Source of the DNA: Thermogemmata fonticola
GTDB taxonomy: Bacteria; Planctomycetota; Planctomycetia; Gemmatales; Gemmataceae
Assembly: GCF_013694095.1 (NCBI RefSeq)
Contig: NZ_JACEFB010000007.1
Coordinates: 62,001 to 126,000, forward strand
DNA: 64,000 nt
Direction: 5' to 3'
This document shows, in pieces, positions 7,828 through 36,643 of this stretch (position 1 is its first letter; every line of letters begins with the position of its first letter). Both the position numbers and the translations under genes were made by a program. The notes beneath the pieces were generated by a model. The model did not search any database and was not told the DNA's origin. It was given only the letters and a program-made list of their open reading frames with translations.

Positions 7828-8043
7828 ATGCGAGCCGTCATCGAGGTCGAGTCCCACTTGTGTCATCACGCTGAGGCCGTGAACGTGGAGGCCACGGAGG
7901 AGCCGAGGGCGACCCCACCTCGTCAGGTGCCGCAATCTGTTCTCTGGCAATGGAGCGGGCGCAAGCTGCGACCTCTTCAGCCCGTGGCGAAAACGATCGG
8001 TGAGAAAACCGTCAGCGAGATGATTATTGAGGACCGGCGGTGA
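7828..8043 (+). CDS. Putative antitoxin of a broken VapBC-like pair
   Basis: 71 residues, starting at ATG 7828 after GGGAGGG. It ends VSEMIIEDRR and its stop overlaps the GTG of the downstream PIN-domain start (GTGA at 8040-8043). Size and overlap are what one expects of an antitoxin before a VapC toxin. The N-terminal half (IEVESHLCHHAEAVNVEA) is not a familiar antitoxin DNA-binding fold, so it could instead be a small partner of the TIGR04255-like gene. Confidence 0.4.
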   Translation: MRAVIEVESHLCHHAEAVNVEATEEPRATPPRQVPQSVLWQWSGRKLRPLQPVAKTIGEKTVSEMIIEDRR

Positions 8044-9332
8044 TTGTCTATTTTGATGCCAGCGCCCTGGTCAAGCGTTACGTCGAAGAGGAAGGCTCCG
8101 CCTTGGTGCGGGATTTGTTGACTTCGGAACCCATAGCAGCCACGTCAGTCATTTCCCTTTTGGAACTGCCGAACGTCCGTCTGCGCCGCCGGGAGCGGAT
8201 TACCTGCAACGAGGAAGAACGCCTCCGCGAAGGGTACGAACTCCAGGTGACCTATCGCTTCGCACCGCCCGAATCCGGCCAGCGCCTGAGGGAAGCCGAC
8301 GTGGTCGCCGGTGGTCAGCCCCTGCTGCGGTTGCTCTACGCTCCCGCCGCCACCATCGCTTACATCAACCACGGCTGGAAATACGAGTGCCGGCCCCAGG
8401 GATTCCTCATCGATCTGGATTCAGGAGAACTCTTGACAGACAGCGCAGTGGAAACCCCCCGGCCTGCCTCGGCCTCAGAAGCCACGCCTCCGGAATCGCT
8501 GCGGCTGTGGGTCTGGGAAACTCAGGATTTGCTCCTCGTGCGGTTCCTCAACCCAGAACTCCGCGAGAATGACGTGGTGCAGACCAGTCTCCAGTACGCC
8601 CTCCAGCGGGGGATCGAGCAGACCTTTCAACTGGAGGAAAGGGAGCTTGGCGTGGCACGCTTGGGGGAAGGCCCGTGGAAGTCTCTGCTGTTTTACGAAG
8701 CCGCCGAAGGAAGCTTAGGAGTTCTGCGGCGCCTCATGGACGAACCATCTGCCCTGTCCGAGGTCGCCCAGTCGGCCCTGGCCATCTGCCACTACAACCC
8801 CGACGGCACCGAGCAAGCCCGCGCCTGCCAACAGGCCTGCTACGAATGCCTGCTGAGCTACACGAACCAGTTGGAAGCGAACCTCCTGAACCGCCAAGCA
8901 ATCCGCGACTTGCTCCAGCAACTCACCGCCTGCCAGGTGCAGCCGCGCCTCAGTTCTCACCGCTCCGAGGAACGCCGCAGTTACGAGGAGCACCTGGCCT
9001 ACCTCCGCGCCCGGACCCAGTCCGCCTTGGAACGGAATTTCCTGGAATTCCTGGAGCAGCACGGGTATCGGCTCCCCGCTGACGCCCAGAAGTCCCTCGC
9101 GGAACCTCGCTGCATCGCCGATTTCTTCTACCAGCCTAACGTGCTCGTCTTTTGCGACGGCCCGCCTCACGACACCTCCCACCAGCGCCGCATCGACGAG
9201 CAGCAACGCCGCGAACTGGTCGCCTGCGGCTATCGGGTGGTGGTCATCCGCTGGGACCAGGATTTCCACCAGCAAGTCCGCGCCTATCCGGAGATTTTCG
9301 GCCTGAGCCGCACGGCTCGCCCTGGAAGCTGA
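8040..9332 (+). pseudogene. Chimeric ORF: VapC N-terminus fused to helicase C-terminus (DUF1998 plus nuclease)
   Basis: 430 residues from GTG 8040. Residues 1-43 are a PIN-domain start: VYFDASALVKRY contains the first catalytic Asp, and ATSVISLLEL the second acidic position. The sequence then changes abruptly to RRERITCNEEERLREGYEL, typical of the C-terminal part of large DEAD/DEAH helicases. A DUF1998/MZB zinc motif follows (CQQACYECLLSYTNQ, about 260-275). The tail resembles a Vsr/DUF559 PD-(D/E)xK nuclease (IADFFYQPNVLVFCDGPPHD, then GYRVVVIRW). No helicase ATPase motifs are present. The simplest reading is a deletion joining a toxin gene to the 3' end of a defence helicase in frame. The nuclease tail could still fold. 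Confidence 0.7.
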
Positions 9333-9718: not shown

Positions 9719-10783
9719 TTAACGTAAGCGGTTGCGAATATAGTCAGCAACCAATTCGGTCTGTGCTTCACCTTGGGCCGTTGTAAAGACTACGAGCGGC
9801 AGAACGTTGTCGCCGGATTCGTAGCGAACGGCGATCTTCCCTTCCGCGGCGCTCAACACCCGGACGCGCGGGCCGCTGAGCGCGGCGGTATCATAAACGA
9901 TCCGTTTCACGCAATCGATGGCCGCAAGCCGATCCACGAACTTGTCCCAGCCGTGCGGCCGACGGTGCCCGAGGCTGGAAAGACCAACCTTCTCTTCCGG
10001 TGACAAATTGGCGGCCGGCGGCCAAACGGCCCGCGGTTCCAGGGCAAGTTCCTCTCGGGCCACCTGGAAGAGAAGATTTCCCGCCGCACTCAGGTAGGTG
10101 TGACCGTCGGGATCGTCTTCCACTAGGGGACGCAATTCAGGCCGACTCCTTAACCAGCTTTCTACTTCTGTGCTGGCCCGTGGCTCCTGCTCGATCCAGT
10201 CGAAGAAGTCCCGGTGCTGCAGAACAAAGCGGGCATCCCAAGCCAAGGGGAGGCGGGGCAGGCGGATAACCTCGCGGAACTGCTCGTGGATGTAGCAGAC
10301 CTCGACCTTGAGCAAGGCGCCGAGCAGGTTGAGAAAGGCGATCTCGGCCTTGAAACCGCCAGTAGCACAGAGAACAGGTTCCAGCAATTGGTCGCGTGCT
10401 CGCCGAATTGCGGCGATGGTTTCATCCACGAGGCTGCGCAGACCCCGTTGGGCGAAGCTTCCTTGGTGGTAGTGGAGCGCGTTGAGTTTGCGCTCTTCAG
10501 CTTCGCGGCAACGTCCAGCGCGCAGATAGGCCAGAAGTCGCTGCGAGCAGAATTGACCTTCTGGGGTGTCAGAATGGAGTAGGCACACGCGGTCGTCGGT
10601 GGTCAGGCCGACGGCGCGGAGCGTGTTGGTTTCGGCGCTGGCCGTAACGGGGTCAGCCGTGGTCAGCCAGGCATCGACTACTGCTGGCTCCGGCAGAGGT
10701 TTCGTGCGTTGCCAAGGAGCCCAGGGACGGTCAGGGTTGGTCAGCAGCGAGGTGCCGACAGTGCAGATCAACAAGCGGGCCAT
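9719..10783 (-). CDS. CARF-domain CRISPR ancillary protein with RelE-like C-terminus
   Basis: 354 residues. The N-terminal domain matches the APE2256/Csm6-type CARF fold that binds cyclic oligoadenylates: CTVGTSLL at residues 7-14, then VCLLHSDTPEG, then CATGGFKAEIAFLNLLGALL and YIHEQFREVIRLPRLPLAWD. The middle is helical. The last 90 or so residues (WDKFVDRLAAIDCVKRIVYD ... VRVLSAAEGKIAVRYES ... LPLVVFTTAQGEAQTELV) have the helix-strand pattern of RelE/ParE mRNA interferases. CARF-RelE effectors are known from type III systems (Cami1). It is last in the cmr operon, 27 bp after the cmr6-cmr1 fusion, with two copies of GGAGGGTTAA before its ATG. The CARF call is firm; the RelE call is moderate. 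Confidence 0.75.
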   Translation of the reverse strand: MARLLICTVGTSLLTNPDRPWAPWQRTKPLPEPAVVDAWLTTADPVTASAETNTLRAVGLTTDDRVCLLHSDTPEGQFCSQRLLAYLRAGRCREAEERKLNALHYHQGSFAQRGLRSLVDETIAAIRRARDQLLEPVLCATGGFKAEIAFLNLLGALLKVEVCYIHEQFREVIRLPRLPLAWDARFVLQHRDFFDWIEQEPRASTEVESWLRSRPELRPLVEDDPDGHTYLSAAGNLLFQVAREELALEPRAVWPPAANLSPEEKVGLSSLGHRRPHGWDKFVDRLAAIDCVKRIVYDTAALSGPRVRVLSAAEGKIAVRYESGDNVLPLVVFTTAQGEAQTELVADYIRNRLR

Positions 10784-10810
10784 AGTTAACCCTCCTCCCT
10801 ATTAACCCTC

Positions 10811-13219
10811 CTACCTATCACGCGGTCGCCATCCTCCGGGACCGCCTTTGGGTTTGCCTTGCGATTTCTGCGCACGCTGCTCGTCGGCAGCGGTCGGCCA
10901 GCGAAAGGCGATTTCCCGCTCATTCGCCGACTGCACGATCAACGGTACGATATCGCCAGCCTTCTTGTCAGCAGGCACTTCCCCGGAATTGACAATCGGA
11001 CCGGAGATATTGCTCGTCACATGACGGGCCTTCCAGCCGCCTTTCTTGGTTTTCTCCTCGAGCAAAACGGCTTCCACCCGCTCTCCCGGCTTAGGCAAAG
11101 CCGGTCCTGTGAAATGAGAAGGTGCCCGTTGAGATGGAGAGGCCGTTCCTTGACCAGGAGGAGCCGAAGGAGGTGATAAGTCGGCTCGTCTTTGCAAATC
11201 GCTGCCGAAGTCACGGAGGAATTCTTCCAGGAACGTCCGGCTGGTGTTGAGGTCGGGCAGGTGCGCTGCCGGGAAGGCAACCACGCGGACCACCCAGCCG
11301 CTGTCACGGCGTTCGATGTGGATGTGGACGGGCGAGGCATGGCGGCCTCCCATGGGACCGTGTAGCCTTCGAGGCGGTCGGTGTGTTGCAGGGTTTTGGT
11401 GCGGAAGTGGATGAGGTCGGGGTCCATGAATCTGACGAGGAAGGCCTAGGGCGAGCTTGCTCGGATTGTGCGCGCGTAGGTGGGCAGCCGATTCGTAAGC
11501 GAAGCCTACCTGGTCCAGCACGCTCCAGATATTCGGCCAGGAAAAAGCCACCTCCACAGGTCCAAGTACCTGCTGCCAAGACGGCGATTCAGCGCGAGCC
11601 GCTTGAAAGGTATTCGGCAATCCCAATCCTTGGCGCAACTGCTCGGCGCTGCGTTGGCAATTTTCGCGGGTGTAGTTTGTCAGGGAATCTGCAGCGAGGG
11701 AGCCGAAGCCTTTGCGGGCCTTGGAGCCGACGCCGCCGAAGTGGCATAGCAGCCAGAGGGCAGCCTTCGCTTGTTCCAGGGCTTGCTCTGCGGTGATTTG
11801 CCGGCCCTGTCGGGCTTTCGCGGGATCGCTAGCATCCTGGCGATTGGCAAAGTAGCGGGTCGGGCGAGCCACCAGCCGCAAGCGCCAGCGTGCTCCGGGT
11901 TCGAGGTAGTGGCGCTGCTTCCTCTGCCCTTTGCTTGTTTCATCCATGCCATAGGAGGCGTACCACAACCCCTGCGTGACCTTCCGAGGGTCCTCTCCAG
12001 GAATGCCGTGATGTGATCGCTTCTGCTCATCCTTGAAATTGGCTTTGCTTCGCTTGTCATACGGCTGAGGTGAAACGTCCCCCATCGGCTCAAGCAGAAT
12101 TCGCACGGCTCCGCTGCTGTTGGTATCGCCCCAGATGGCGGCTTCGAGTGCCCGGAGTGTTTTCACGTCAAGAAAGCCGGCGTGCATCGTCCGCCACCAC
12201 CAGCGCAGGAGTCCGCGCAGGGTGGCCGGCCGCAGGTCGCAATCCTCGGCTTGCTGATTGGCTCCAGCGAGGAAGGCGGGTGTGACCAGTTCCAGTGTGG
12301 TTTCAAAAGTCAAACGCCTTTGGCTTGGCGGCGGCGGAGCGTTCCCTTCGACAGGTCTGAAGGCGCCGTAGCCGGTGGCGGTCTTCGCACCGGCGCCGAG
12401 ATGGCAGAGGGCGCCCAGGAGCCAGTCGCGGGCCAGTTCCACCAACCGATCGGGCACATCCCTGTGGCGCTTCGCCAGAGGAAAAGTGAACGTGACACCT
12501 GGCGGCACCGCCAGGAAGTACACCGGCACCGGGTTCTCCCAGTCGCCCGGTGGATGAGCGTTGTCATTCGGCTCGGCCTGGTAGTACTCCGGGTGGTGAT
12601 TGTTGACAATGTCCACGATCAGTTTGGGCCAGGATTCCGGCCAGGCGTCGTGGAAGATGATGTTGCCGGAAGATGCCGAGATTTCGGGGGATTTGGGATC
12701 GTGGTCATCCTGGCGGCGCACTTCGGCGGGATGGTTGGGATCATGGATCTGTTGGCGGCGATCGGGGTGGGGCGCCCAGCCGAAGACGTCCTCGATGTCT
12801 CTCCAGGCTTGCTTCTGGTCCGATTGTGCCGGAAGCCAAATGGTCTCGGCATAGGCGCGGGCCATGCCCTTCAGTCCGCTGCCGGGGAGATAGGCGAAGC
12901 CGTAGAGCGGATGCAGGCAGATGCCGGCGTTTTCCAGGGCCGAGGCACGGGCCAGATGCAGCGCCAGCGGGCTGGTGGTGGTTGCTCGGAAAGCGGTGTA
13001 ACCCGGCAACGTGTTCCCAAGCGACCGGCGCCGTGCGGCTAGATCGTTCAGCAAGCCGGAGTCGCCGGACGTGCGGCAGACGTGATCCAAAGCCTGTTTC
13101 TGAGCCATCTGGTTGCCCGGAATGCTGAACTTGTCGAGTTGCAAACCGGGATGTCGCTGGGCGTCGGGTACCCGACTGAGAAGTTGGACCGTACTTTGAG
13201 GAAGGATTAATCCGTTCAT
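10811..13219 (-). CDS. Cmr6-Cmr1 fusion protein, type III-B CRISPR effector
   Basis: 802 residues. Residues 1-300 are Cmr6-like: LPGSGLKGMARAYAE (glycine-rich RAMP loop), WLLGALCHLGAGAKTATGYGAF. Residues about 305-665 are Cmr1-like: FETTLELVTPAFLAGANQ, then LRPATLRGLLRWWWRTMHAG and LEAAIWGDT, and HFGGVGSKARKGFG, with RHASPVHIHI near the end. A C-terminal segment (about 705-785) after a Pro/Ser linker has an OB/S1-like strand pattern (GERVEAVLLEEKTKKGGWKA ... IVPLIVQ). Cmr1 and Cmr6 are normally separate subunits near the 3' (target) end of the crRNA in the complex. The fused order here is Cmr6 then Cmr1. The ATG overlaps the stop of cmr5. Confidence 0.85.
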   Translation of the reverse strand: MNGLILPQSTVQLLSRVPDAQRHPGLQLDKFSIPGNQMAQKQALDHVCRTSGDSGLLNDLAARRRSLGNTLPGYTAFRATTTSPLALHLARASALENAGICLHPLYGFAYLPGSGLKGMARAYAETIWLPAQSDQKQAWRDIEDVFGWAPHPDRRQQIHDPNHPAEVRRQDDHDPKSPEISASSGNIIFHDAWPESWPKLIVDIVNNHHPEYYQAEPNDNAHPPGDWENPVPVYFLAVPPGVTFTFPLAKRHRDVPDRLVELARDWLLGALCHLGAGAKTATGYGAFRPVEGNAPPPPSQRRLTFETTLELVTPAFLAGANQQAEDCDLRPATLRGLLRWWWRTMHAGFLDVKTLRALEAAIWGDTNSSGAVRILLEPMGDVSPQPYDKRSKANFKDEQKRSHHGIPGEDPRKVTQGLWYASYGMDETSKGQRKQRHYLEPGARWRLRLVARPTRYFANRQDASDPAKARQGRQITAEQALEQAKAALWLLCHFGGVGSKARKGFGSLAADSLTNYTRENCQRSAEQLRQGLGLPNTFQAARAESPSWQQVLGPVEVAFSWPNIWSVLDQVGFAYESAAHLRAHNPSKLALGLPRQIHGPRPHPLPHQNPATHRPPRRLHGPMGGRHASPVHIHIERRDSGWVVRVVAFPAAHLPDLNTSRTFLEEFLRDFGSDLQRRADLSPPSAPPGQGTASPSQRAPSHFTGPALPKPGERVEAVLLEEKTKKGGWKARHVTSNISGPIVNSGEVPADKKAGDIVPLIVQSANEREIAFRWPTAADEQRAQKSQGKPKGGPGGWRPRDR

Positions 13220-13629
13220 GATTCCTCTCCTTCCGTCAGTCCCTCGGCCTCGGCGAAGCGGTTGAGCCAGACGAGATACGCTAGCACCTCATCGGTCGCC
13301 CGGCGGAGAAAGTCGGAGTTGCCCTGGATGATCCGCTCCAGAAGGTCGTCCGGTTCACCCTTTCGAGGCGGGATGCGCGTCTTTATCCAGTCGCTCAGTT
13401 CGGCGAGCAGCCCCGGCGCGTAGTCTTTCGCCTTCAGGAATGCCAGGGCCTGTCCCAGGCCGGCGGCCAGAATGCGCGTCGGCAGCTTTTTGACCTGCCC
13501 GCCGAACTTCTTGGGGTCCTGCCTCTCATGCTGGTCTTGCTTCTGCTTGGCTCGCTGGACCGCATTCCAGGCATGGTTGGCTCGGCGCTGGTCGAGCGTT
13601 TGCGCGGAATCATTCGTTGTTTCTGCCAT
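13216..13629 (-). CDS. cmr5: Cmr5, small subunit of the type III-B effector
   Basis: 137 residues, mostly helical. The Cmr5 signature is clear: QVKKLPTRILAAGLGQALAF in the middle and RATDEVLAYLVWLNRFAEAE near the end. Cmr5 forms the helical belly filament beside Cmr4 in the Cmr complex. It starts 12 bp after cmr4 ends, and its stop overlaps the start of the cmr6-cmr1 fusion. Length is normal for the family. Confidence 0.9.
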   Translation of the reverse strand: MAETTNDSAQTLDQRRANHAWNAVQRAKQKQDQHERQDPKKFGGQVKKLPTRILAAGLGQALAFLKAKDYAPGLLAELSDWIKTRIPPRKGEPDDLLERIIQGNSDFLRRATDEVLAYLVWLNRFAEAEGLTEGEES

Positions 13630-13641
13630 GGCGCACTCTCC

Positions 13642-14574
13642 TTATCCGTTGATGTCAAGCCGCACGGCACACAGCCCTTTGCCGATCGTCTCATCTCCGC
13701 CGATTTGCAGCACAGACGGCATGTTGTCACGCAGGTACTGGAGGATTTGCTGGGCGCTCCTGTTGTGCCCATCCCGGCGGCTGGAGCTGGCCAGCACGAC
13801 GGAGTAAAAGAGTGTCTCGGCGGGCAGGAATTCCTCGTAAAAGAGTGCTCCGGATTTGACTGTCTTGCGTTCGTAATCCAAGCCGACGCGGGCGACGATC
13901 TCAGTGGCATGTCGGGCGAAGTGGGTGAAGTCATCGTTATGCAAAACGACGAGGTGGCTCTGCAATCGTTTTTGCGTCGCATCATCCGCTACCGCGTGTT
14001 GCGACAGCCAGGCAGCAAATGCATCAGCATCGCCCGTTCGCTTGAACTCGAATTCTTCCAGGACCAGCTTATCGCCGTCGATGAGCAATGGGCTGTTTTG
14101 CTGGCACAGCGCCCACTCTTTCTTGTCCTCGGACGGCCACTCAGCAGAGAGATTCAGCGCGTTGCCGTTTGGCAGCGCTAGCTTCAAGTCCCGTTTGAGT
14201 CGTTCCAGCACAGCCCGGCAGGTGACCCAGGCAAAGACCCCTTTGAGCGAGCGGACTGGGAAGGCCAGGATGCGGGCGTCCGTCAGGCTGAGAGCGCCGG
14301 CGTGTTTGTCCGCTTCGGCGGTTTCTGGACCGAAGGCTGCGAACAAGTCGGCATTGTTTCCTCCCCGCCTTCGACAGGCGTCCCGGAGGATGCCCTTGAG
14401 GGTCGAGCCGGGGATGATGGGCCATTGGGTGTGGCGTTCGCGCTGCACGGGCAGGTCCACGGTGCCCAGGGCCGTACCTGATCCCGGATGCAAGCCGGTC
14501 TGGGCGTGGATGAACAGCAAGGCACCCGCTTGAGGGTCTGTTTGTGTCGAAGAGTTGGTTGTCGCTTCACTCAT
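13642..14574 (-). CDS. cmr4: Cmr4, backbone RAMP subunit and target RNase
   Basis: 310 residues. It has the Cmr4 start LLFIHAQTGLHPGSGTALG followed by VDLPVQRERHTQWP and IPGSTLKGILRDA, then FPVRSLKGVFAWVTC. Cmr4 forms the crRNA-binding backbone and cuts target RNA at 6-nt steps; the catalytic Asp of the family lies in the N-terminal loop region. The ATG at 14574 overlaps the cmr3 stop (ATGA), with GGAG about ten bases upstream; a TTG nine bases further up is less likely. Confidence 0.92.
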   Translation of the reverse strand: MSEATTNSSTQTDPQAGALLFIHAQTGLHPGSGTALGTVDLPVQRERHTQWPIIPGSTLKGILRDACRRRGGNNADLFAAFGPETAEADKHAGALSLTDARILAFPVRSLKGVFAWVTCRAVLERLKRDLKLALPNGNALNLSAEWPSEDKKEWALCQQNSPLLIDGDKLVLEEFEFKRTGDADAFAAWLSQHAVADDATQKRLQSHLVVLHNDDFTHFARHATEIVARVGLDYERKTVKSGALFYEEFLPAETLFYSVVLASSSRRDGHNRSAQQILQYLRDNMPSVLQIGGDETIGKGLCAVRLDING

Positions 14575-15719
14575 GGGTTCCAAACTCCTGTTAGGCAGCA
14601 GCCCCAGCCGAGTTGGCGATCCTCATCGCTTTCGGCCAGGCTCTGCGGCCAAGGGTTGGGGCCAGATTCCAGGAAATACACACTGCCAGCGGGGACGGCG
14701 AAGCGGGTCGGTTTGGGTCCGCCACGGGCCAGGTCCCAGCCGGAGAAGGCGAGCGAACCGGGCACTGCCGCTGCTACCAGGCAGCCGTTCAAAGCCTGGG
14801 GTTTCCAGCCGGCCTGGAAGGGACAGGGCGTTGTCAGCAGCACGAGCGGTTTCTGCTTCTCGCCCTGGGGTCGTTGATTTGGCCAGGCAAAAGACTGAGG
14901 CAAGGAGTGCACCTTCACCTGTTTCCCCTCGCCGCCGAGTGGCAAATGGGTGATGTTGCGGAGCAGTTCTGGGTCGGCAATCTCGGCTGGCAGGACGACC
15001 TCCACGTAGAGAAACACATCCTGCTTCAAGGCGAGAAAACTCAGGCTGTAAATTTGCGACTCGGCGGCAGTCAAGCGGTCAGGGTGGATGCCGATCCCTG
15101 TGCGGTGGTCGAAGGCGAACAACTTGCTTGCGGGAACCACCGCCTCAGCGGCCACCTCCTCGCCCCGCAGGAACTGCTCCAGACCGGCTGGTGTGAGGTA
15201 TCCCTCTGCTGGCTCCGTGACGGCCAGCTCCTTGAGCCACAGCGGACGTAGGCCTTGCTGATCCTGCGGGGGGAACCAGCCGGGAAGCTGCCCGTCAGGC
15301 AGGGGATGGAGCCGTCGCAGTCTGTCCACCGATCCTTTTTTGGGCTTGTGCAGGATCGCCGGCGCAGGGACGAGCACCTCGTATTTCTCATGTTTCTCTT
15401 GTTCCTCTTTTTCCTGATTGAGCCAGCGGGCCAGCCACGGTCCGCGCACGACAACCTGGCCGATCCAGTGGTGATCTGGTTGACAGGTTTGTTTTACCGC
15501 CTCGGCAAACGACCGACCTTCCCCGAGGGCGTGTCGGAGACGGGCGAAGTCGCACCTCGCCTCTTGTAACAGTGCCTGGCGGATGGCGCCGGCGACCGTC
15601 TGCGGTAAAGGCAAGCCGCTTACGATCTGCTCCGTACCGACACGGAACGGCCGGCCGTCGCGGAAAAAAAGCACGTCGAGCGGTTCCAGACCGAGAGCTA
15701 CGGTGGTGGCCATGCTCAT
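14571..15719 (-). CDS. cmr3: Cmr3, RAMP subunit of the type III-B effector
   Basis: 382 residues. The N-terminus LEPLDVLFFRDGRPF followed by SGLPLPQTVAGAIRQAL is the Cmr3 signature. Later segments include LPLGGEGKQV and the C-terminal GWDLARGGPKPTRFAVPAGS. Cmr3 caps the 5' crRNA handle together with Cmr2. The start chosen, ATG 15719, overlaps the cmr2 stop as ATGA; ATG 15713 is possible. Length is typical. Confidence 0.92.
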   Translation of the reverse strand: MSMATTVALGLEPLDVLFFRDGRPFRVGTEQIVSGLPLPQTVAGAIRQALLQEARCDFARLRHALGEGRSFAEAVKQTCQPDHHWIGQVVVRGPWLARWLNQEKEEQEKHEKYEVLVPAPAILHKPKKGSVDRLRRLHPLPDGQLPGWFPPQDQQGLRPLWLKELAVTEPAEGYLTPAGLEQFLRGEEVAAEAVVPASKLFAFDHRTGIGIHPDRLTAAESQIYSLSFLALKQDVFLYVEVVLPAEIADPELLRNITHLPLGGEGKQVKVHSLPQSFAWPNQRPQGEKQKPLVLLTTPCPFQAGWKPQALNGCLVAAAVPGSLAFSGWDLARGGPKPTRFAVPAGSVYFLESGPNPWPQSLAESDEDRQLGWGCCLTGVWNP

Positions 15720-18301
15720 TCGTCCCTCCCGCGTGCCAAGAAGGAAGCGGACTGGCACAGAGTGAGAAAGTTCTCCAGCGCCTCCCCCGGTGAGGCAAAG
15801 CGGCGCCGGCTCGCTCCGTTCACCTCAACCGCTGAATCGCGCAACTGTTGGAACGTTTTGAGCAACTGATCCGGGGGAATGAGCCGAGGCGTGGGTTGCT
15901 CCGCGCGCTGGAGCTGCCGCCGCATCTCGGCCTGGATCGCTTCCGGGGGCAGAGCCGTCAGTGTCTGCCGTTCGGCATAGAGATGGTAAGCCCAGCGATC
16001 GGAAGCCCCCTGCAAGAAGGCATTTACCCAATCCTGGACCCTCTCCACAAAAGTCCAGGGGCAGACGGCGGTGGTGTGCTCCCCGGACCGACGACGGACG
16101 GTGATCGCCAGAGCATCCCGGCCCGCTTCCTTGGCCTGGTGTTCCGCTGCGCGGGCATCTTGCAACGCCAGCCGCAGGTTATCCGTGGCATGCACCAGGA
16201 CGATCCCGCCGGAAAGCGTCGCCCGCCATCCCATCATCAGGTATTCCCGGCCATTGTGGGTGTACCAGTCTGAGGTGTAGATCTGCTGGAGTTTCCGAAC
16301 GCAGGCCAGCACTGTGCTCACCGGCAGCAATGCCAGCGTGTCGTCACCGCCAGAGTAAATGACCGTGCCGTGATGTTTCGCGACGACATCGGGAACCACA
16401 TGCAGGGCGAAGTTGGTCAGAGCCGTGCTGATGGCCGCATGCAACGCCGGACCGACCGGACGCTTGGCATCGAGACCAGCTTTCGTGTGCGCTCCCAGCC
16501 CTTCGTAATAGCGCACCAGATCGGGGTGCATCACCTCGCGGACCTTCGGTGAGTTTTCGCCGCGGAGCCAGCCGCCGAGATTGTCGCCGTCGAGTTTGAG
16601 GATGGCGTAATAGATCGGGGGCTTGCCGTGCTGTTCTTTAGCCTTCTGGATTAGTCGAAACAAAGGTTCGGGGCACGGGGCGGTTTCTTCCGAGTCATAG
16701 TTAGGGGTAGGCCAGTGCAGCCAGCAGCCGTTCCAATCACGATGTTGTTTACGGACCTGGTCGGGGTCGATTCCCGCTTGACGAAGCCACTCAGCCGCAG
16801 CGACGGTCCAGGTATCCGGGAAGCGCAGATCGTCGGGCGAAATCTGCAACTCTTTGGCCAGCAGGGCCGGTCCCGCAAAGCGCTTCATCAGGGCCACAGC
16901 ACACAGACCCTCGCGCGGACGGATGCGCACACCGTGGATGTTTACCTTCTCAGCAGCCATGTCCCAGAATTGCCGAGACGCGGACAAATCATCCGGCCCC
17001 ATCTGCTCGAAGCTGCCTAGCAGCGTGCATTTTTGCGGGAAGCGTTCACCGGGAGTGATGGCTGGGTTCGGCGGCACATGGCGAATCGTGCGATGCGCAG
17101 CAAGCGAACGCTGGACCAATTCCACCTGATATTGCCAACGGCCGGCATGGTCCTGAGGGTAACCCGGTTGCTGATTCGGCGGAATGGCGCGGGCCAGGTT
17201 ACGGACCGCCTCAGCCTCCGGGAAAGCCTCTGCGAAGCTGCTTTGGCCCGCGAGCAAATCGGCCAGTCGGGTATCGACTTCCTCGGCCGAACCGCCCAGG
17301 GGCACCACTGCGGCAGCGAAGCTGAAGTAATTCTCGACCTGGTGTTGCCAGCGTCTATCCCAGTGTGCACACAAGCCGCTCAGCGGTTGGTCCAGGACAC
17401 CGTGCACGGCGTCCGCCAGCTCTCGCACCGCCTCTTTGGCCGCCTGCTGACATTCGATTGCTAATGCTTTGGCCTTAGCCCCGTTGGCTCCCCACGGCAC
17501 CAAGGCCAGGAAGCGATGGGGCAGCGACGGCGCCCGGCGCTGCTTGACCCCCGGTAATGGTACCTTGCTTTCCCCGAGCAACTTCGGTTGCCGCAGCCAG
17601 AGGTCCACCAGCGGGATGCCGCGCAGAGCGGGGTAGATGAACGCTGTCGGGCCGAACTGTTCCAGGATGGGCCGCATGGCCCGGAAGGCGAGCCAGGACA
17701 GGATCATACTCCCGGACCAGAGATCGCGGACCGTTCGCGCCGCCTCGATGAAGCGCTGGACTGGGCCCAACGCGAAGGCGAGCAAGGCCCGGCCGTGAGT
17801 GTCCTCCGTCGCTTGCAATCCGCTCGTAATGTCCAGGTGATGCCAGATCGTGTGATCCGGGGTGCGCGTGTCTGCGGGCAAGTGGGCGTACCACGGATGG
17901 TCCGCATCCGCCAGCCGTTCCAGAAAGAATCGCCACAAAACTAGGAATTGCCGTCGGCTGTCGTTCAGACCCTGAGTCAAGTTACGTACATGCTGGATGA
18001 CCCAGGCTTGATCGATGGTACCGACTTTCAAGTCCCGACGTTGGGCCGATAGCGGATGAAAGATCGTCAACGCTCCGTTCTGCGGAGCCACCGTGAGGAT
18101 GCGCCAATGCGGGGCGGGTAATCGCTCGACTTGGGACGCCAGGCTGTCCGCAAGATTCTGGAGTTGGGAGCTTTCTACCGGCTCATTTCGGGCCGCTTCG
18201 GCATACCGGCCTGCCCGCTCCACATGGCCGGGGATGTCCAGCGCCTTGTCCGGCGGGTCGTGCAAATAGGCCAGCAATACTGCATCCCAATCAGCACTCA
18301 C
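15716..18301 (-). CDS. cmr2: Cmr2/Cas10, cyclic-oligoadenylate synthetase subunit
   Basis: 861 residues, GTG start at 18301 with GGAGG seven bases upstream. An N-terminal HD-type motif (LLAYLHDPPDKAL ... PGH, residues 8-26) is present. The two Palm domains are visible: ILKLDGDNLGGWL (about 560) and the catalytic YSGGDDTLALLP (about 650). An intact GGDD motif predicts synthesis of cyclic oligoadenylates on target recognition, which would activate the CARF protein at the operon's end. It is the first gene of the operon. No cas6, cas1 or cas2 follows or precedes it in this window. Confidence 0.93.
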   Translation of the reverse strand: MSADWDAVLLAYLHDPPDKALDIPGHVERAGRYAEAARNEPVESSQLQNLADSLASQVERLPAPHWRILTVAPQNGALTIFHPLSAQRRDLKVGTIDQAWVIQHVRNLTQGLNDSRRQFLVLWRFFLERLADADHPWYAHLPADTRTPDHTIWHHLDITSGLQATEDTHGRALLAFALGPVQRFIEAARTVRDLWSGSMILSWLAFRAMRPILEQFGPTAFIYPALRGIPLVDLWLRQPKLLGESKVPLPGVKQRRAPSLPHRFLALVPWGANGAKAKALAIECQQAAKEAVRELADAVHGVLDQPLSGLCAHWDRRWQHQVENYFSFAAAVVPLGGSAEEVDTRLADLLAGQSSFAEAFPEAEAVRNLARAIPPNQQPGYPQDHAGRWQYQVELVQRSLAAHRTIRHVPPNPAITPGERFPQKCTLLGSFEQMGPDDLSASRQFWDMAAEKVNIHGVRIRPREGLCAVALMKRFAGPALLAKELQISPDDLRFPDTWTVAAAEWLRQAGIDPDQVRKQHRDWNGCWLHWPTPNYDSEETAPCPEPLFRLIQKAKEQHGKPPIYYAILKLDGDNLGGWLRGENSPKVREVMHPDLVRYYEGLGAHTKAGLDAKRPVGPALHAAISTALTNFALHVVPDVVAKHHGTVIYSGGDDTLALLPVSTVLACVRKLQQIYTSDWYTHNGREYLMMGWRATLSGGIVLVHATDNLRLALQDARAAEHQAKEAGRDALAITVRRRSGEHTTAVCPWTFVERVQDWVNAFLQGASDRWAYHLYAERQTLTALPPEAIQAEMRRQLQRAEQPTPRLIPPDQLLKTFQQLRDSAVEVNGASRRRFASPGEALENFLTLCQSASFLARGRDE

Positions 18302-20557: not shown

Positions 20558-20587
20558 GTGTACTCATGTCCACGGGAGTGTATCGGA
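20558..20587 (-). repeat. attL-like copy of the tRNA-Sec 3' end
   Basis: Positions 20567-20587 are identical (21/21) to 36543-36563, which cover the 3' end of the selenocysteine tRNA and six bases beyond. Extending to 20558 and 36534 adds GTGTAC in both copies, with three mismatches between. The copy lies on the side to which the tRNA 3' end points, as expected for the far end of an element integrated at a tRNA gene. The base sequence between 20448 and 20557 shows no gene. Confidence 0.8.
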
Positions 20588-20617
20588 TACCGAGGCGCCT
20601 TCCTGCTGGCTCTTTTA

Positions 20618-21467
20618 GAAGTCATCTCATAACTAGTTTCGCAGCAAGAGGAGGATGCAGGCAAGCTGCACGAAGCCGAGGTAGTTGACCCGATGGCGCT
20701 CGTAACGAACCACCAGCCGTCGAAAGTTGCTCAACCAGGCGAACAAGCGCTCGATCTTCCAACGCCGCTTGTAACGGCGCAGCTTACGGCCATCCTGGGT
20801 GCGTCGCTGGCGTCGGTTGCCCCGGTGGGGCGCAATCATCTCGATCCCACGTTCAGCCAAGCGGGTGTCCAGCGGGTCGCTGTCATAAGCCCGATCGCCG
20901 ATCCGTTTCCTGGGCTATTCGGGGGCGAAGCAGGCCGCCAGCGTGTGCTCAACGAGCGTCACTTCGTGCGGGCGAGCACTCGTGACGCCTACGGCGATCG
21001 GAAAACCAGTGCCGTCTGCCACTGCCATGAGCTTCGTCTCTTTGCCCCGCTGGGTCTTTCCCACTCCATCGCCCCCTTTTTCGCGACCCCGAAGGTGCCA
21101 TCGATGAAGCCCTCCTGGAGATCGAGGCCTCCCCGCCCCTTCCGGTCTTCCGTCAGGGCGTGCAGGATCGCCTCCATGACCCCTATCCTCATCCAACGCC
21201 GGAAGCGGCGATGGCAGCTCTGGTGTGGGGGATATCGCTTCGGCAAGTCTTTCCACGGCGCAGCGGTGCGCAGCATCCCCAAGATGCCGTTCAGCACCTC
21301 CCGCGGATTCCTCCCGGTACGGCCCCGCCTGCCCGTCGGGAGACGCTCCTCTTGGGGCAAGAGTGGCTCTAACACCGCCCACTGTTCGTCTGTCAGATCT
21401 ATCGCTCACCTTCATCATCGTAGTGATCATAGTGTACACCAGTCTCATGTATTTATGAGATAACTTC
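20618..21467 (-). mobile_element. IS5-type (IS427-like) insertion sequence, degenerate
   Basis: About 850 bp bounded by inverted repeats: GAAGTCATCTCATAA at the left and the complement of GAAGTTATCTCATAA at the right (one mismatch). TA lies outside each end (20616-20617, 21468-21469), consistent with a 2-bp target duplication. It contains one broken transposase gene. It lies just inside the left end of the island. Confidence 0.75.
20633..21375 (-). pseudogene. IS5-family transposase, interrupted
   Basis: The first frame (from about 21375) reads WAVLEPLLPQEE-like, then GRNPREVLNGILGMLRTAAP and a DUF4096-type region up to EGFIDGTFGVAKKG. It then passes to a second frame at A5G5 (minus strand, near 21072-21081), a usual frameshift site in IS427-group elements. 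The second frame continues GKETKLMAVADGTGFPI, VEHTLAACFAPE, and is stopped by an in-frame TAG at 20915-20917. The rest ([20 protein letters not shown] ... [20 protein letters not shown]) is open in the same frame to 20633. There is also no ATG at the expected start. The copy is therefore probably inactive. Confidence 0.8.
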
Positions 21468-28509: not shown

Positions 28510-30975
28510 ATGTTTCCTATTCTTTTTGTAATAGTTGGGATTACGATTTTTATAGTTGGGATTACGATTTTTATCATTTTTGGAATTATAATTCACAAAC
28601 GTAACAAGCAGTTAATGCGAATCAGTGTCGACGAGGCACAAAGCGAAGTGGCAGGAGTACAACACTATGAGGAAAGCCAGGAAACTGATCTGGGTACAAA
28701 AGAACATTGCCAGCAATCGAATACAAGGCCCTGTTATCAAGATGGTGACAATCTACAAAAAATCATGGAAGAATCTCATGATGTGGAAAAAGAATTCGTC
28801 ATAGCAAAAAATTTGCAAGAAAATATAATAGAAGAATCGCAATCAATTTCATTAGAGGAGATCCAACTAAAGACAGTTCTAGAATCACCAACAGGAGTCA
28901 CACAGGATCCCCAAGTGGCAATCGTGGCGGAAACTCAACCAACGGCGGTAGGAGAACTCTGCCCCCCCGTAGTCCAAGAGACTCAACCGACCATAGGAAG
29001 GGAAATGCAACTGCAGGTGGCGGGGCAGGAATCACCGCCATCGATAACGCAGAGAGCACAACCGACTTCAAAAAGTGAGCGGTTGGAACCTGCCGAAAGG
29101 GGAGGTAGGTCACGCGTCTCGATCCGAGATCCGAAGAAACGGCTAACAGCAAACCCTAAGCCCCGCACTCCGAAGCCCGAAATCGTTTGCTGGAAGAGAG
29201 AACGACAGTGGATACCAGCGGTAGAGGTGCCAGAGGAACTTCTTGAAAGTTCCGATTTAGCGGTGTTTCAAAATGGACAATCCCTGACCAAAGACGAATC
29301 AAGGGATGCCTGCTGGCACCTTACTCAGGTTACCGGTGAAGTAACAGTGCGGTGGAGCGAAGGTGAGAATGCTCGAGAGACCAAGGTCTCACTTGGCCAA
29401 GGGAATTACCTTCTGTTCAAACTGAGCAGTGACCAAAATTGGGGACGTCGTGTCCAATCCCCTTCCTCTGGGTCCTATCTTGTGACGGTTCCGGACGATT
29501 GGGAGCGCGACGAAGCATTGTCAGGGCCTCCACCAGTTACTCCAGAGTTTGTGTCCCTTAAGGACTATCGAGCGCATTTCTTCGAACTTGAGAGAGGTAG
29601 CGAGAAGAAGATCGCCTTTCGCACGTCTGAAGGCAAATCAGTCATCATTGAGTCGAAGGAATCACGATTCAAGCTCATTGGGAATCGCCTGCCCGCTGCA
29701 AGTGAGAATATCGGGCCTCTCTTTGGCGGAAATCCTCCCCAAATTTGCGCTATGGATGTCCAAGCGTGGAAAGATGTTGGGACAATTGTTGTAGGGGAAG
29801 AGGGCAGTGGAAAGGGAAGATGGCGCATGGCTTTCACCCCCGAGCAGGGATTGATTGAGCAAACTTTGCCTCCTGAAGTGGGTGAGAGAAAAGAAGGATG
29901 GTACTTTCTTAGATTTTACGACACGAACGGTGACCTTGTAGAGAGTCTGGATTTTAGATTCATCAGCGCTCTAAAAGAAATCAGGACCGATCGATTTTCT
30001 CCACTCCCCCTTGAAAATGGATATAATCCGGTATGTGTCACATTCCTCCATGACCCTGGTTGTGTTATCCATCTGGCTGACGGCAGTCTTAACGTCCAAA
30101 TTGAACGCCAGGATGACAAAACGATTCTGACTATTCCCCCTGATCCTACATGTGACAAAACACACTGGCATGTGGGGTCCCAAGGTGGGCCACAGGTAGA
30201 GGTGACCATCCTGGTAGAAAGGCTCTGGTGGGCGATAGGGGAGGAGAATCAAGAGCCAACGGAATGGAGAGACAGGCCTTTGACATTGAAGCGCGGGGAT
30301 TTCGCGGCCACTTCCAAGAAAGCACTCTGGATACGCTTCCCAAGATATCGTTGGGTAGATAGGATCCGTGTGGGATTCGAGCAAACGAAAGCTAGGACTT
30401 ATAATGTAATGGTAACGGCCAAAACAATCACTGTCCCACTTCGCGAATTCAGCGATTCCATAGTCATAAGAGATGGAACGGAAACATGCTCCTTAAAGGT
30501 GTGGATTAAACGTGATGACGATCTCACAGAGGGAGTCATTGCTGTTATCCCGGCGGTTCAGTTGACAGTCACGCCTGCTCCCGAACAGATGCAGTCAGCA
30601 CCCACACCATCTTGGGTCGGTCTCGGAAGAAAGAAAACCGCCGTCGCGAAAGCCGTCCTACGGGAGGGATCCGGTCCCATCAAGGTCAACGGGCAAAACA
30701 TATTAGACTACTTTGGGAAGGCTCCGGACAAAGCGAAACAGTTTTTAATGAAGCTGTTAGAGATGACCGATGTCCGTCAGGTACTGGCACGGATGGAAGC
30801 ATCTGTCAATGTAACGGGTAGCAATCCAACTACAACCAGGCAGGCCAAGGCAGTAGCCCATGCTCTAGCGCGCGCCTTGATGAGCTATAATCCGCATCTG
30901 AAATCCCTGTTGAAACGATATGGTTTCGGAGGAGTCAGAGTGAAGAGTAGCTTTGTCTTCCCTCAGGAGAGGTAG
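28510..30975 (+). CDS. Membrane-anchored beta-rich protein with ribosomal-protein-uS9-like C-terminal domain
   Basis: 821 residues. A very hydrophobic N-terminus (residues 1-30) contains the heptapeptide VGITIFI twice and is followed by HKRNK, giving a membrane anchor with the rest probably cytosolic. Residues 35-225 are low-complexity, rich in Glu, Gln and Pro. Residues 230-690 are beta-rich with no family I recognise. The last 115 residues (from W702) align along their length with ribosomal protein uS9: GLGRKKTAVAKAVLREGSGP, IKVNGQNILDYFG, LLEMTD, ASVNVTGS, QAKAVAHALARALMSYNPHL, LLKRYGFG. The basic SKR tail of true uS9 is missing. The gene ends 3 bp before a DUF1998 helicase gene. Starts further in, such as near 28616, would lose the anchor. 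Confidence 0.75.
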   Translation: MFPILFVIVGITIFIVGITIFIIFGIIIHKRNKQLMRISVDEAQSEVAGVQHYEESQETDLGTKEHCQQSNTRPCYQDGDNLQKIMEESHDVEKEFVIAKNLQENIIEESQSISLEEIQLKTVLESPTGVTQDPQVAIVAETQPTAVGELCPPVVQETQPTIGREMQLQVAGQESPPSITQRAQPTSKSERLEPAERGGRSRVSIRDPKKRLTANPKPRTPKPEIVCWKRERQWIPAVEVPEELLESSDLAVFQNGQSLTKDESRDACWHLTQVTGEVTVRWSEGENARETKVSLGQGNYLLFKLSSDQNWGRRVQSPSSGSYLVTVPDDWERDEALSGPPPVTPEFVSLKDYRAHFFELERGSEKKIAFRTSEGKSVIIESKESRFKLIGNRLPAASENIGPLFGGNPPQICAMDVQAWKDVGTIVVGEEGSGKGRWRMAFTPEQGLIEQTLPPEVGERKEGWYFLRFYDTNGDLVESLDFRFISALKEIRTDRFSPLPLENGYNPVCVTFLHDPGCVIHLADGSLNVQIERQDDKTILTIPPDPTCDKTHWHVGSQGGPQVEVTILVERLWWAIGEENQEPTEWRDRPLTLKRGDFAATSKKALWIRFPRYRWVDRIRVGFEQTKARTYNVMVTAKTITVPLREFSDSIVIRDGTETCSLKVWIKRDDDLTEGVIAVIPAVQLTVTPAPEQMQSAPTPSWVGLGRKKTAVAKAVLREGSGPIKVNGQNILDYFGKAPDKAKQFLMKLLEMTDVRQVLARMEASVNVTGSNPTTTRQAKAVAHALARALMSYNPHLKSLLKRYGFGGVRVKSSFVFPQER
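28531..28572. repeat. 21-bp tandem duplication in the membrane anchor
   Basis: ATAGTTGGGATTACGATTTT begins at 28531 and again at 28552. The period of 21 bp keeps the frame and doubles the heptapeptide VGITIFI in the anchor helix. Confidence 0.85.
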
Positions 30976-36533: not shown

Positions 36534-36563
36534 GTGTACAATTGTCCACGGGAGTGTATCGGA
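36534..36563 (-). repeat. attR-like site overlapping the tRNA-Sec 3' end
   Basis: Partner of the copy at 20558-20587; 36543-36563 are identical to it. Positions 36549-36563 are the last 15 bases of the tRNA gene (discriminator, 3' acceptor strand and start of the T-arm). This is the usual crossover target of tRNA-directed integrases. Confidence 0.8.
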
Positions 36564-36643
36564 ATCGAACCGACTGAGGGCGTTGTTCACACCCTCCACG
36601 GGTTTTGAAGACCCGGGCCCGCACCAGCGGTGCAAACACTCCC
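36549..36643 (-). tRNA. selC: Selenocysteine tRNA (anticodon UCA)
   Basis: Read on the minus strand, 95 nt fold as a tRNA-Sec. The 8-bp acceptor stem is GGGAGTGT with ACACTCCC, followed by discriminator G. The D-arm is GCACC/GGTGC. The anticodon arm is CGGGT-CTTCAAA-ACCCG with anticodon TCA. A long variable arm (GAGGGTGT/ACGCCCTC) and the T-arm GTCGG-TTCGATT-CCGAT complete it. The 8-bp acceptor, UCA anticodon and large variable arm are specific to tRNA-Sec, which reads UGA as selenocysteine with SelB. CCA is not encoded. No selA, selB or selD is in the window. Confidence 0.93.

Follow-up and report, generated by a model that had tools for sequence, protein, structure and literature searches.

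What is a core ribosomal protein domain doing at the end of a protein encoded next to a DruE-family helicase? The question is raised by a locus of Thermogemmata fonticola, analysed here within a 64,000-nt stretch of contig NZ_JACEFB010000007.1 (the window), in which the gene of an 821-aa protein, hereafter the partner, directly precedes that of the helicase (Table 1). The original prediction had placed a uS9-like domain at positions 30613-30975, that is, at the C-terminus of the partner, and a profile search had been set beforehand as a possible refutation. This search does place the region in the uS9 family: the Pfam Ribosomal_S9 model (PF00380) matches residues 706-806 with an E value of 1.9e-15 and 57.8 bits, above its curated cut-off of 22.5 bits. 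The NCBIfam bacterial S9 model also matches (E 5.1e-16), with a score under its equivalog cut-off of 112 bits, and matches to solved uS9 chains reach an E value of 2.2e-12. The predicted structure (pLDDT 84) has the uS9 fold, with a TM-score of 0.73 and an rmsd of 1.8-2.0 Å to uS9 of E. coli and Pseudomonas, although this is consistent with the profile matches rather than independent support for them, since the alignment behind the model was built from uS9 sequences. The predicted full-length alignment was not borne out: the Pfam match covers profile positions 1-94 of 121, and the final ~15 residues are unaligned.

Table 1. Features of the partner-helicase locus and its island, in window coordinates
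Feature	Position	Strand	Remarks
Left att-like direct repeat	20558..20587	.	27/30 identical, 21 exact
Partner protein, 821 aa	28510..30975	+	From N- to C-terminus: hydrophobic segment, acidic linker, Ig-like core, basic uS9-like domain
Hydrophobic segment, residues ~1-30	28510..28599	+	Likely membrane anchor, from reading of the sequence
Acidic linker, residues 31-218	28600..29163	+	Poorly conserved
Conserved core, residues 219-668	29164..30513	+	Tandem Ig/FnIII-like beta domains
Junction and P/T/S/Q-rich linker, residues 669-701	30514..30612	+	Relatives switch C-terminal modules here
uS9-like domain, residues 702-821	30613..30972	+	Net charge +14
Position of canonical GGGxSGQAGA loop	30817..30852	+	Reads GSNPTTTRQAKA; from comparison with canonical uS9
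DruE-family (YprA/MZB) helicase, 1576 aa	30979..35709	+	Starts 3 bases past the partner stop codon
Right att-like direct repeat	36534..36563	.	Overlaps tRNA-SeC 3′ end
tRNA-SeC, island integration site	36549..36643	-

In uS9, a glycine-rich loop (GGGxSGQAGA) and the C-terminal tail contact the rRNA and the P site. Neither is found in the partner: GSNPTTTRQAKA stands at the place of the loop, and the whole tail, LTRDxRxxERKKYG..ARxxFQFSKR, is missing. The basic SKR terminus is thus absent, as had been noted from the sequence, but the loss was understated, since the entire tail and the loop are gone. With both the GGGxSGQ loop and the basic TRDxR...SKR tail of a functional uS9 lacking, the domain is not a working ribosomal protein. 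Residues 706-806 belong with uS9 (rpsI) in both sequence family and fold; the domain differs from it in these losses, in its fusion to a large partner and in not lying beside rplM. The same genome has a separate, complete rpsI on another contig, next to a uL13-like gene, and the fused domain is neither the standard nor the only copy.

The N-terminal GxGRKK motif of uS9 is retained, and 19 of the 30 pre-tail positions that are conserved in at least 85% of 55 canonical uS9 sequences are kept; in three of the 11 lost ones K replaces R or E replaces D. The fused domain has the longest branch of the uS9 tree, 3.95 changes per column versus a canonical median of 0.37 (~10 times), and the survival of 19/30 conserved non-tail positions along such a branch suggests that the fold was probably kept by selection. 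The tree gives the domain no supported position among the uS9 lineages, and a grouping with the uS9 of the host's family was not rejected (p-AU 0.345). The host's own uS9 (L001:1264-1848) carries an insert of ~60 residues before the C-terminal tail, and inserts of variable length are present ahead of the tail in the uS9 proteins of the family. Misassembly is an unlikely origin of the fusion, as identity to the canonical uS9 sequences compared, the host's included, nowhere exceeds 39%.

How general is the fusion? The partner core (residues 219-668) was found in six further loci (L004, L005, L036, L029, L030 and L091), and in all seven the partner gene lies directly upstream of an orthologous helicase. 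None of the six relatives carries uS9, the second outcome that had been set beforehand as a possible refutation, so that the window locus is the sole example among the loci found and a conserved pairing of uS9 with the helicase has to be given up, which leaves the domain at the window locus unaffected. Instead, three aligned zinc fingers (CxxC..H..H or C) are found at the C-terminus of the partners of L004, L005, L036, L029 and L091, with some cysteines changed in L029; L005 and L036, being closely related, were counted as one lineage. The L030 partner (L030:4398-7265) ends in a different basic stretch (+14) without zinc fingers, which appears helical by inspection only. The difference in C-terminal modules falls at one boundary, at about residues 670-700. 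Since zinc fingers occur in the nearest members as well as in L091, the most distant relative, they are likely ancestral, and the sequences suggest that uS9 replaced them at a swappable position. N-termini vary as well: the window and L004 partners have a hydrophobic anchor, those of L005 and L036 a coiled coil, and in L029 (5155-9390) a long SMC-like coiled coil with hydrophobic segments is fused to the same core. The core is rare in the genome sets searched, being found in 3/392 genomes of the phylum, in 2/4 and 1/44 genomes of the phyla of L005 and L004, respectively, and in two clear cases among 397 genomes of the class. Hits in G577 and G583 (E 5e-4) seem spurious: in G583 the region hit is a chemotaxis-type histidine kinase gene. 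No second uS9 fusion was detected among the 392 genomes of the phylum, where the other genomes with two uS9 matches hold partial uS9 pieces at contig ends or in two frames. Relatives of the core were found in none of the viral contigs, plasmids and phages searched, nor were relatives of the fused domain found in the viral contigs.

The neighbouring gene, predicted to encode a DUF1998 helicase, proved to be a DruE-family helicase: it has DEAD, Helicase_C and MZB domains by profile search, and PADLOC DruE models match it down to an E value of 1.3e-183 (DruE1). As the MZB domain ends at residue 1549 of 1576, no C-terminal nuclease fits in the protein. A quick helicase tree (SH-aLRT support only, no bootstrap) included references from Druantia I (DruA adjacent), II-like cyanobacterial and III (beside STY4851/ECs_5259 partners) loci, the type labels being our own from the neighbouring genes, and from two ARMADA-like loci. 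The window helicase groups with DruE, away from the ARMADA-like helicases, and forms a supported clade with those of L004, L036, L029 and L091 (72%, 70%, 62% and 47% identity, respectively) outside the Druantia I, II and III references (24-30%); identity to the two ARMADA-like helicases is 24-26%. Sister to this clade is a helicase of Ruminococcus phage NatCom_28274 (32% identity), which belongs to a two-gene operon (L093:4245-11668). The partner protein of that operon, of 916 aa, looks unrelated, and the phage partner gene (P0002) gave no match to the partner core. Elsewhere in the window, a 430-aa MZB-domain protein (8040-9332) resembles the C-terminal end of DruE and has no helicase core.

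Among known systems the closest in layout is Druantia type III (DruH and DruE), likewise made of two genes with the partner first and a DruE-family helicase second. DruH has Ig-like domains and is a proposed sensor, and DruE prefers 3′-tailed DNA (PMC13192584). The window partner core is also Ig-like: its model is all beta (pLDDT 83), with Ig and FnIII tandems as best structure matches (Z up to 7.0), although this fold is a common one. By sequence, however, the partner is no DruH: there was no match to the PADLOC DruH models, nor in an hhalign comparison of the core with one E. coli DruH (a weak, single-sequence profile), and its N-terminus and C-terminal module are unlike those of DruH. No DruH was listed in second-look structure alignments of the core, against a library that may not include it. 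The type III helicase, moreover, has C-terminal PLD nuclease domains, whereas the window helicase has none and falls in a separate clade. A Druantia III-like branch of YprA helicases mostly without nucleases has been described (PMC12458937); the window helicase resembles it, by description only, in being DruE-like without a C-terminal nuclease, and the main text of that paper makes no mention of ribosomal domains. DISARM DrmAB, Dpd and ARMADA share a YprA-family helicase, but no methylase, BrxHII-like or PLD genes were recognised beside the window pair.

From these likenesses the partner-helicase pair very probably represents a Druantia-like defence module. The Ig-like partner would sense infection or recruit the helicase, as proposed for DruH in Druantia III, with its C-terminal module touching the target or trigger. 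The uS9-like domain has a net charge of +14 in 120 aa versus -7 in 450 aa for the partner core, and we tentatively propose that it may act as a non-ribosomal nucleic-acid-binding module: the captured domain would have been retained for a basic surface that binds RNA or DNA, and could help to position or activate the helicase at phage nucleic acid. The zinc-finger modules are not basic (net charge +1 to -10), which counts somewhat against the proposal, as the two types of module may not share a nucleic-acid role.

The original prediction had offered ribosome or rRNA sensing and re-use of the fold for nucleic-acid binding side by side, and the second appears to fit better. True uS9 homology and fold, the retained GxGRKK motif and the basic charge would all agree with a domain that docks on 16S rRNA, the 30S subunit or an assembly intermediate and couples the helicase to the state of translation. 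Yet the glycine loop and tail are lost, the branch is some 10 times the canonical median, and the zinc-finger relatives manage without uS9, so that sensing is disfavoured by the sequences and docking seems unlikely. That the captured domain is itself the trigger, reading rRNA, 30S or translation state and loading the helicase at the membrane upon phage disturbance, is quite improbable. Very improbable, too, is a bait, in which the domain would mimic host uS9 or match a phage-encoded one and a phage factor acting on it would set off defence. Phages of animal-associated bacteria do carry uS9 among other ribosomal proteins (PMC6375957), and the partner occupies the place of the proposed sensor of Druantia III, but a domain that has lost most of the conserved surface elements specific to uS9 makes a poor mimic.

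Could both types of C-terminal module, uS9-like and zinc-finger, instead hold a protein, be it the helicase or another one, rather than nucleic acid? This would agree with the lack of basic charge in the zinc-finger modules, with the contact that uS9 makes with uS7 in the ribosome and with a reported action of uS9 on UmuC (PMC10931766). Helicases that are 72% identical nevertheless pair with very different C-terminal modules, which would not be expected of a helicase dock, and a protein-protein module is rather unlikely. It is also unlikely that a uS9 fragment became fused by accident, destroying the zinc-finger end and remaining as a functionless passenger; the single occurrence among the genomes searched and the lost tail and loop speak for it, whereas the open frame, the conserved non-tail positions and a confidently predicted fold despite 3.95 changes per column speak against it.

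Re-use as a nucleic-acid-binding module remains the tentative preference. The locus presents a core ribosomal protein domain apparently swapped onto the end of a probable defence partner where relatives have zinc fingers. Because the swap took place there while the helicase changes far less, the partner C-terminus is a candidate specificity module. Relative to L004, the helicase is 72% identical versus 51% for the partner core, and the two C-terminal modules are of entirely different kinds; we infer from this pattern of a conserved helicase, a faster partner and a replaced end that a constant motor may work with a variable recognition protein. The swap offers a direct route to asking what Druantia-like partners recognise, and the locus also draws attention to a two-gene branch of DruE helicases that has been little described and in which the partner is Ig-like.

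The predicted mobile setting was confirmed by low G+C, att repeats and a tRNA-SeC site. G+C is 0.45-0.53 across much of 20-36.5 kb, versus ~0.62 leftward, and an exact 21-nt repeat (20567-20587 and 36543-36563), none being expected in shuffled sequences, lies within the att-like repeats. This is the usual anatomy of integration at a tRNA site, with a ~16-kb island in the 3′ end of tRNA-SeC and the partner-helicase pair at its right end. None of the island genes was recognised as an integrase; a minus-strand transposase remnant, recognised by eye, lies near the left repeat (20600-21460). Between 21665 and 27755 the island encodes cytidine deaminase-like and Gfo/Idh-type oxidoreductase-like proteins, a weak Csx3-AAA match, an indolepyruvate oxidoreductase-like TPP enzyme and a dTMP-kinase-like protein, genes that run in one direction and are possibly a second functional unit. 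Just outside the island, on its left side (9722-18301), are type III-B CRISPR genes (Cmr2/Cas10, Cmr3, RAMP) and an APE2256/TIGR02619 ring-nuclease-like gene. In L005 and L036, the partner-helicase pair directly follows type III-D CRISPR effector genes and lies upstream of a WYL regulator.
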